NCBI GenBank assembly: GCA_016778895.1
Contig: JADHOR010000004.1
Location: 1-64,000, forward strand
From: Candidatus Puniceispirillum sp.
GTDB lineage: Bacteria; Pseudomonadota; Alphaproteobacteria; Puniceispirillales; Puniceispirillaceae
Direction: 5' to 3'
Length of the DNA: 64,000 nt
Shown here piece after piece: positions 60,030-62,706 of this stretch; within the stretch, counting starts at the first letter, position 1, and each line of letters opens with the position of its first letter. Both the position numbers and the translations under genes were made by a program. The notes under the pieces are model-generated. The model did no database searches, was not told the origin of the DNA, and saw nothing but the letters and a program-made list of their open reading frames with translations.

Positions 60030-60635
60030 TTAGTCGTTAAATTGGCGGTATGCCGCATAAATACGGGTGCCCGTTGTTACCCAGCACAGCAACCCGAACA
60101 GCAGTGCCATGACTATGAAATAGTCAGGCCAGATAAGCATTGCAAGGAAAAGCAATATGGTTTCCGCACCTTCGGTTAGGCCACCAAGATAGTAAAATGC
60201 TTTCTTACCGCGAATATCAGTCGTGACATGATGTTTTTCGGCAAGGATGGCAAAGCCGAGAAAGCTGCTCGCGGTGCCGATAAAGCTGAAAATCAGGAAC
60301 GTGGCAGCGACCGCATTTTCCGGACGCGCCAGCGCGAATGTAAACGGGATTGAACTGTAGAAGATAAAGTCACTAACAATATCAAGATAGCCGCCAAAAT
60401 CGCTAGACTGGCTGGCGCGCGCCACAGCCCCATCGAGCCCATCAGCGACACGGTTTAGCAACACTAGCCATAAGGCGGGTTGAAACATCTCGGCTGCCAC
60501 ACAACCTGCCGCCAGCAGCCCAAAACCAGCACCGGCGAGGGTAACCTGATTGGCTGTTACCCCTAGCCTGACAAGACCGCGTCCAAGCGGATTTAGTAGC
60601 TGGTCAATCACTGGCCGGATTTGGGCGTCAAACAT
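60030..60635 (-). CDS. CDP-alcohol phosphatidyltransferase family protein
   Basis: 201 residues with about six transmembrane helices. The active-site motif D-GL-DG-AV-AR, then G-GYL-D-IVS-D, is present, with seven instead of the usual eight residues between AR and the glycine; all four aspartates are kept. The family uses CDP-diacylglycerol or a similar donor. The neighbour five bases upstream is the Psd homologue, which suggests phosphatidylserine synthase-like chemistry, but the acceptor cannot be read from the sequence. Confidence 0.85.
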   Translation of the reverse strand: MFDAQIRPVIDQLLNPLGRGLVRLGVTANQVTLAGAGFGLLAAGCVAAEMFQPALWLVLLNRVADGLDGAVARASQSSDFGGYLDIVSDFIFYSSIPFTFALARPENAVAATFLIFSFIGTASSFLGFAILAEKHHVTTDIRGKKAFYYLGGLTEGAETILLFLAMLIWPDYFIVMALLFGLLCWVTTGTRIYAAYRQFND

Positions 60636-60640
60636 CGTCT

Positions 60641-61342
60641 TTAGTTCTGTCTGGATGAAGGTCTGCGGGCGAATTGCGCCACCACCGTCTCACCAGCAAT
60701 CATATGCTGGCCAGGCGTTATCATGATTTTACACCCAGCAGGCACATAAAGATCAACCACACCGGCGATGCGCGCCATCCCGATCGGGCTACCAGCCAGC
60801 ACCCGCTTTCCTTCGGCCAGACGGCAAACCAGCTGACGCGCGGTCTTGCTGCCAAGCTGTACCAGCACAATATCGCGGTTAAACGCATCACGAATGCAGA
60901 TCTCGCGCCGCTCATTTACTTCGCGCGCGGACTGCCAGCTTGCCGGATTATCACCCCAGGACGTAAAAAGCCCCGGAAAAAGCACATTCTCAACGATATG
61001 GCCGGTAATCGGGCTAGTTTGCAGTTGCATATCGCTTAGGCGTGTCCGAATAGTGATGCATTTCGCCGCGACAGCCGCATCAGTCATCATGCCATCCGGA
61101 AAATTTGTGGTAACAATGTCCAGAACCACGCCATCTGCAGGCGCATAGATCGACTGCCTGTCACCTTCGGTTTGCCGGTTTGGCACCCGCAAGCCATGCG
61201 CCAGCCACAACATGAGACCAAGCGCAAAACACCCTAGCGGTAAAGAAATCACGCTGGTTAAGATTGTTACAACCCCTGCTATGGCAAGCACCGGCCAGCC
61301 ATCATCAGCAATTTTCCAGTCAGATCCAGATATCATCTTCAT
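60641..61342 (-). CDS. Phosphatidylserine decarboxylase-like protein lacking the self-processing serine
   Basis: 233 residues that match short (Psd-A type) decarboxylases along the full length: N-terminal membrane hairpin, YAPADGVVLDI, and a C-terminus DLYVPAGCKIMITPGQHMIAGETVVAQF. In active enzymes the last block is preceded by F-G-S-R, where Ser is cleaved to make the pyruvoyl group. Here it is RIAGVVD, with Gly194 at that place. The conserved His of the NCHVNRAP-like block is also missing (MQLQTSP, residues 105-111). Ordinary decarboxylase activity is therefore unlikely. It is paired with a CDP-alcohol phosphatidyltransferase. Confidence 0.85.
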   Translation of the reverse strand: MKMISGSDWKIADDGWPVLAIAGVVTILTSVISLPLGCFALGLMLWLAHGLRVPNRQTEGDRQSIYAPADGVVLDIVTTNFPDGMMTDAAVAAKCITIRTRLSDMQLQTSPITGHIVENVLFPGLFTSWGDNPASWQSAREVNERREICIRDAFNRDIVLVQLGSKTARQLVCRLAEGKRVLAGSPIGMARIAGVVDLYVPAGCKIMITPGQHMIAGETVVAQFARRPSSRQN

Positions 61343-61461: not shown

Positions 61462-62706
61462 TTAATTTTGGCCAGCGATTGGGCTGGTCGCGTTTGGAAC
61501 TGCAAAAATCTGCTTTGGGTAAATCAAGTTTGGATCACTGATATCCTGCCGGTTTCGCCGCACGATATCGACATATTTCACCCCTTCACCCAGCTGATGA
61601 TAGGCGATACGCCACAAAGCATCACCTTTATTCACAACGATCAGAGGCGATCCATCCTGACCTTTGGCAAGGTCGCGCGCGCTTATCGGCAGATCATAAT
61701 GCGCAATCACCCGATTAGCCTCATCATATAGCTCAAAGCGTAGATGGTTCACCGTCAAACTCATATCAAAACTACCGGCAATTTGCCAGTCGCCATCCAC
61801 CAGAACCAACGCCTCACCAAAGCTGCGCTTTGGATCAGTTGCCGTTACTTTAATGCCGCCGCGCGATGTGCCTGATATCAGAATACTGCCTGCATCGCGC
61901 CAGACAATGGCAGTTGGCGTCAAAGCAGCGAGCTGGGTTGTAGCGATGTCCGGTTGCGGTTTGGCAGGAGACGGTGTCACAGTAACCTTCGCTGTGGTGC
62001 TGGCCGGTTGTGGTTTGGCAGGAGACGGTGTCACAGTAACCTTCGCTGTGGTGCTGGCCGGTTGTGGTTTGGCAGGAGACGGTGTCACAGTCACCGTCGC
62101 TGTGGTGTTTGCCGGTTGCGCCGGCTCGACATCATCCGGCGACTGAATCAGCACCGGCACGTCGGTGGCTGTTTCTGGCAATAGCGCCACCAAGGGCTTT
62201 GACTCGGCATCTTGGTATATTTCTACTGCCAGACTGCGATCGGCAAGCTCGGTAGATCCGTCCGGGCGTTCCATTGCAACCGAGATCAGATGCTGGCCGG
62301 GCGCCAGCATTTTTTCTAATACAATGACCCATTCACCACTGCCATTGGCAATCGTTTCACCAAGCAAAATATCACCTTCAAAAATACTAATTTTTGCATT
62401 CGGGGCAGCTGTACCGGCAAAGACCGCCGCACCATCAGGCTTGACCCGAGCCAGATCAATAATCAACGGCGGCAGCGTGGCAGCAACAGTGCGCAAGTTT
62501 GCTTGCGGTGCAATTGACGGGTCCGTTTGCGTTGGTTCAGCCGCCAGCGGCGCTGGTTGCGCCCCAACAGGCGCTGGCTTTGACAGATCAATTGACTGGC
62601 TTTGCGGCTCTATCTGCTGGGTTTCATCATCAAGAATCACCATCGAGAGCGCAATCGCAACGAGAACTCCACCAACTGCAAAAAGAATGTAGAGTATCCA
62701 GCGCAC
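61462..62706 (-). CDS. LysM-domain protein with Thr/Pro/Ala repeat linker
   Basis: 414 residues. An N-terminal transmembrane anchor (ILYILFAVGGVLVAIALSMVIL) is followed by a Pro/Gln-rich region, an Ig-like segment (AVFAGTAAPNAKISIF), about three 18-residue repeats (KVTVTPSPAKPQPASTTA), a second Ig-like part, and a C-terminal LysM domain (VVNKGDALWRIAYHQLG...YPKQIFAVP). LysM binds peptidoglycan, so the protein may link the inner membrane to the wall. The function is unknown. Confidence 0.88.
   Translation of the reverse strand: MRWILYILFAVGGVLVAIALSMVILDDETQQIEPQSQSIDLSKPAPVGAQPAPLAAEPTQTDPSIAPQANLRTVAATLPPLIIDLARVKPDGAAVFAGTAAPNAKISIFEGDILLGETIANGSGEWVIVLEKMLAPGQHLISVAMERPDGSTELADRSLAVEIYQDAESKPLVALLPETATDVPVLIQSPDDVEPAQPANTTATVTVTPSPAKPQPASTTAKVTVTPSPAKPQPASTTAKVTVTPSPAKPQPDIATTQLAALTPTAIVWRDAGSILISGTSRGGIKVTATDPKRSFGEALVLVDGDWQIAGSFDMSLTVNHLRFELYDEANRVIAHYDLPISARDLAKGQDGSPLIVVNKGDALWRIAYHQLGEGVKYVDIVRRNRQDISDPNLIYPKQIFAVPNATSPIAGQN
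61952..62117 (-). repeat. 54-bp tandem repeat in the LysM-protein gene
   Basis: Three nearly identical 54-bp units begin at 61952, 62006 and 62060, with a partial fourth. They encode the 18-residue Pro/Thr/Lys repeats in the linker. The high identity suggests recent expansion and possible length variation among strains. Confidence 0.85.

Follow-up and report, generated by a model that had tools for sequence, protein, structure and literature searches.

A phosphatidylserine decarboxylase homologue without the pyruvoyl site in the Puniceispirillaceae (SAR116), a candidate partner of a YnjF-type CDP-alcohol phosphatidyltransferase

Among pyruvoyl enzymes, the textbook example is phosphatidylserine decarboxylase (Psd), which yields phosphatidylethanolamine (PE). 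In archaea, archaetidylserine synthase and archaetidylserine decarboxylase work as pairs. The S254A variant of the E. coli Psd remains uncleaved, and all decarboxylation is lost in the H144 mutants (PMC7952604). The AdoMetDC prozyme of the trypanosomatids is a dead paralogue of another pyruvoyl enzyme and is kept beside the live copy (PMC5201418). YnjF is a widespread CDP-alcohol phosphatidyltransferase without a known product, and no papers on it were found in the literature searched; neither was a paper that joined Psd with the term 'pseudoenzyme'.

The window, i.e., the whole stretch of 64,000 nucleotides analysed here, comes from a SAR116-type genome of 2.17 Mb that is 99.6% complete. On the minus strand, positions 60641..61342 encode a Psd-like pseudoenzyme of 233 amino acids, hereafter Psd-v, which can start at Met1 (61342) or at Met3 (61336); the orthologues begin at the Met3 position, and Met3 may thus be the true start. 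Psd-v matched Pfam PF02666 with an E value of 8e-18 (65.3 bits, cut-off 22), and its residues 11-224 matched the short-type NCBIfam Psd models. However, its best NCBIfam score was 115.4 bits against an equivalog cut-off of 252, and it stayed below every Psd equivalog cut-off. The AlphaFold2 model, made from a 49-sequence alignment, had a mean pLDDT of 89, and the eight PDB structures matched with E <= 0.001 were, without exception, pyruvoyl enzymes of the PSD family, including PsiD, the E. coli PSD, and a fungal arginine decarboxylase. By sequence and by predicted fold, Psd-v is therefore a full-length homologue of the short-type Psds, and the end-to-end alignment reported in the initial annotation is borne out. 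Like the short-type Psds (PRK05305/PF02666), it has the same fold, an N-terminal hydrophobic hairpin of two helices (residues 15-50, 61193..61300, minus strand, from the predicted structure and conservation), and the triad Asp, which alignment and conservation place at Asp70 (codon 61133..61135, minus strand; E. coli D90). Unlike them, it has neither the Gly-Ser nor the essential His, its hairpin carries different conserved residues, and its gene lies in a different locus.

The alignment with the canonical Psds of the same order set Gly194 of Psd-v (codon 60761..60763) against the pyruvoyl-forming Ser and Ala193 against the Gly preceding it; the Gly-Ser autocleavage site is thus replaced by Ala-Gly (60761..60766, minus strand). 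Where the essential His is expected (E. coli H144, PMC7952604), Psd-v has Gln106 (61025..61027, minus strand). When 21 Psd-v orthologues from 10 genera were inspected residue by residue, none had the Gly-Ser site. The Ser position was filled by Gly, Ala, Pro, or Ser, and three orthologues of one genus had the Ser, but after Arg, Cys, or Gln. The site was Ala-Gly or Gly-Gly in the genus of the window and in three other genera, and it varied in the others. The His was present in 3 of the 21, in which Pro or Gly stood in place of the Ser, and Ser and His occurred together in none of the 21. An alternative nucleophile at the site was rejected, since none was conserved; nor was a replacement for the His conserved across the genera of these orthologues. 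Because the clade has no member with both Ser and His, and because the E. coli S254A and H144 mutants fail, Psd-v is almost certainly not a Psd enzyme. The initial annotation, whose residue numbers (Gly194 and the others) agreed with this alignment, had proposed that the protein is inactive as a Psd, and this is strongly supported. As the pyruvoyl group cannot form, the chain would stay uncleaved, and Psd-v would be a single membrane-anchored polypeptide. Psd-v-type proteins pass the Pfam cut-off yet, without the pyruvoyl site, should not be annotated as phosphatidylserine decarboxylase.

We searched 37 Puniceispirillaceae genomes, and ynjF was found in 33 of them. The Psd-v gene was directly upstream of it in 33/33, a count that includes one locus split by a contig end (G028). 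The remaining four genomes, which are 51-70% complete, had neither gene. The dN/dS ratio was 0.08-0.20 across 14 pairs of orthologues. Residues conserved at 80% or more in Psd-v only were A22, G23, L34, G37, and L47, all inside the membrane hairpin, together with R146, E147, G164, and P186. The residues restricted to the canonical Psds were lost in Psd-v, and the pocket-frame residues R145 and R169 were kept, besides Asp70. The divergence of Psd-v between genera was strong, with 22-33% identity to the distant ones. These sequence data indicate that Psd-v is a selected protein with constraints of its own, and it very probably has a selected function other than decarboxylation. The gene was frameshifted in the draft assemblies of two relatives (G010, L014/L038; G015, L009), as a decaying pseudogene or an assembly artefact might be. 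However, most of the 33 genomes had it intact, the dN/dS ratio was low, and orthologues existed in 32 other genomes, with the Gly-Ser replaced in all of those inspected. Therefore, error or decay was rejected, being scarcely conceivable as an explanation of Psd-v, and the neofunctionalised rather than decaying protein suggested at the outset is favoured by the low dN/dS, the retention in 33/33, and the clade-specific conserved residues.

The stop codon of Psd-v and the next start codon are only 5 nt apart (60636..60640, minus strand, read from the sequence), and the two genes are likely to be co-translated. The downstream gene (60030..60635, minus strand) encodes a CDP-alcohol phosphatidyltransferase of 201 amino acids (PF01066, E value of 1.5e-8) with 49% identity to E. 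coli YnjF over 197 aa. Its catalytic motif, D65xxDGxxAR...G...D85xxxD89 (60369..60443, minus strand), is intact like that of E. coli YnjF and falls in invariant alignment columns; DxxDGxxAR...GxxxDxxxD was invariant across 19 sequences, except for one Arg-to-Cys change (L039). PgsA and PssA are encoded by genes separate from ynjF; the neighbour resembles YnjF rather than either of these and can be named a YnjF-family enzyme, which is more precise than the CDP-alcohol phosphatidyltransferase of the initial annotation. In MtPgsA1, R94, which follows the last Asp of the motif, is required for inositol phosphate (PMC6506517). The aligned position of the YnjF-type protein holds Phe90, and a phosphatidylinositol-phosphate synthase was rejected on this ground; a phosphorylated polyol of that type would therefore be an unlikely acceptor for YnjF. 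The ynjF of E. coli differs from that of the window in lacking a Psd-like neighbour. On the other side of Psd-v, across a gap of 119 nt, lies the gene for an Ig-like/LysM protein (61462..62706, minus strand; Pfam LysM and Big_6). It shares the strand of Psd-v, and its presence upstream is constant, almost to the degree seen for ynjF. The LysM gene contains a 54-bp tandem repeat in frame (3.1 copies, window positions 61950-62118).

The neighbourhood of icd, the LOG protein, the Ig/LysM protein, ynjF, msrB, and aroE is common to other families of the order. In the sister families, ynjF begins -1 to 18 nt after the LysM gene, without Psd-v (L090, L091, L094, and L096), and no Psd open reading frame was found in any of the sister-family loci L090-L098. 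The same adjacency without Psd-v was seen in a family outside the order (L101). Since the sister families keep the LysM-ynjF order without Psd-v, Psd-v was most likely inserted between the LysM gene and ynjF a single time, in an ancestor of all Puniceispirillaceae; less simply, Psd-v may have been lost in the sister families. In the Psd tree, Psd-v formed one clade (support 100/98) and the canonical Psds of the order a separate one (support 99/95), and thus a recent duplication of the resident psd as the source of Psd-v was not supported. The inserted gene would be an ancient Psd copy, whose exact origin is not fixed by this tree with its long branches.

The genome of the window also has a canonical Psd elsewhere, a point raised by the initial annotation. 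This Psd, with FGSR and DVHVN, is encoded beside PssA at G000:C11:143582-144199. A canonical Psd-PssA pair separate from Psd-v was found in most genomes of the family, and Psd-v and the canonical psd were unlinked. The genus g7 (G021 and G034) lacks PssA, and its canonical psd locus holds a gene that has lost the Ser, the His, and the Asp; in G034, the degenerate psd is syntenic with the canonical psd locus. Between the two degenerate copies (L187:7727-8374 in G034; L114 in G021), pN was 0.34 and pS 0.75, with dS saturated. In G025, neither PssA nor a canonical Psd was found. Nevertheless, Psd-v and ynjF are both present in these three genomes, which are 92-95% complete, so that Psd-v occurs without a live paralogue, and PgsA and YnjF are their only CDP-alcohol phosphatidyltransferases. 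The retention of Psd-v without PssA and canonical Psd speaks against an involvement in PE synthesis, and Psd-v appears from these gene contents to be independent of it.

We lean towards the reading that Psd-v is a membrane-anchored pseudoenzyme with the Psd fold, which works as an accessory or regulatory partner of YnjF. Psd-v would be co-expressed with the YnjF-type enzyme, would serve as its accessory or regulatory subunit, and would act through the membrane hairpin and the old pocket, which presumably still binds phospholipid; it may perhaps sense a phospholipid in this pocket or present it to YnjF. The unbroken adjacency in the family, the FGG Psds encoded before ynjF outside the order (L159 and L161), and the canonical psd-pssA-ynjF clusters of other Alphaproteobacteria speak for this partnership. 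The initial annotation had already proposed a lipid-binding protein, perhaps a partner of the phosphatidyltransferase in the making of a non-PE lipid, and gene order and the retention without PssA and canonical Psd agree with the partnership. In a model of a fused Psd-v-YnjF chain (a read-through of the two in-frame neighbours of L019), the domains were good, but the overall pTM was 0.60 and there was no usable interface. Counting against the partnership, the sister families have YnjF without any Psd-v, and YnjF therefore does not need Psd-v generally; moreover, at the low identity between distant genera, a conserved binding surface of Psd-v is not obvious. Like the archaetidylserine synthase/decarboxylase pairs, Psd-v and YnjF would couple a CDP-alcohol phosphatidyltransferase with a Psd-type protein, but archaetidylserine decarboxylase is catalytic, and both proteins of the window scored far below the corresponding NCBIfam models. 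If the partnership is true, a selected, family-wide clade of Ser-less Psds tied to YnjF would be a seemingly undescribed pseudoenzyme of phospholipid synthesis, and Psd-v would open a genetic route to YnjF in one of the dominant bacterial groups of the surface ocean.

Instead of serving YnjF, Psd-v might bind or hand over lipids in the envelope, either with the upstream LysM protein or alone. The constancy of the LysM gene, the predicted membrane hairpin, and the phospholipid pocket expected by homology fit such a role. However, the gap to the LysM gene is far wider than that to ynjF, and the Ser-less Psds of L159 and L161 stand before ynjF with no LysM gene in the available flanks; we regard this role as rather unlikely. 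Psd-v could also activate the cell's canonical Psd, in the manner of the dead AdoMetDC paralogue of trypanosomes, a precedent from another pyruvoyl decarboxylase (PMC5201418). Both copies do occur in most genomes of the family, and dead and live Psd copies stand in tandem in G077 and G208. Unlike the AdoMetDC prozyme, with which it shares the state of a catalytically dead paralogue, Psd-v is linked to the gene of a different enzyme and persists in genomes without the live copy, as in G025 and, with a degenerate canonical locus and no PssA, in G021 and G034. The fold families of the two proteins are presumably unrelated. The apparent independence of PE synthesis weakens a prozyme-like role further, as does the lack of linkage between Psd-v and the canonical psd genes, and this role is quite improbable.

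There is also a slim chance that Psd-v is an enzyme with a different chemistry in the old pocket, without a pyruvoyl group and acting, e.g., on the product of YnjF. The retention of Asp70, R145, and R169 and the adjoining gene for a headgroup transferase would suit this. Nevertheless, no nucleophile or His is conserved across the genera in place of the lost ones, and the Ser position itself is variable (Gly, Ala, Pro, or Ser).

Ser-less Psds were not confined to Psd-v. They occurred at two loci in SAR116, one of which is the canonical psd locus of g7, and, among other Alphaproteobacteria, in the families f50 and f52 and a complete genome of f149. In two genomes of f52, a family outside the order, the only Psd had FGG, lacked the His, and was encoded directly before ynjF (L159 and L161). 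The Psd of G106 had FGG with the His kept, and the only Psd of G242, a complete genome of 3.7 Mb, had LGG and no His (L160:1279-2178). In two alphaproteobacterial genomes of 0.6 Mb, an IGA Psd with the His kept was in tandem with a live FGS Psd and PssA (L154:845-2157 and L155:839-2172), and this tandem looks like a possible prozyme pair. PssA was absent from the assemblies of several lineages with Ser-less Psds. In the incomplete assemblies of f52 and G106, and in that of G134 with its intact Psd, it was not found. The basal forks of the Psd tree were unresolved, so that the independent losses of the Ser could not be counted on it; the tree allowed a minimum of two Ser changes. The synteny of the degenerate psd of G034 with the canonical locus speaks for separate losses of the Ser. 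It is a tentative possibility that Psd proteins also do something other than catalysis, connected with YnjF or with the membrane, and that this role was retained more than once when the pyruvoyl site had been lost.

Intact Psds were also found next to ynjF. In G134 (assembly 67% complete), ynjF directly follows the gene of an FGS Psd, and PssA does not intervene (L158:805-2364). The order of canonical psd-pssA and then ynjF was read at seven loci of other Alphaproteobacteria, and three more fit it by their coordinates. Genes for VTT-domain proteins (DedA/TVP38 type, PF09335) adjoin ynjF or lie near it in L102, L106, L107, and L108, and in E. coli (L089) a VTT-domain gene lies a few genes from ynjF.
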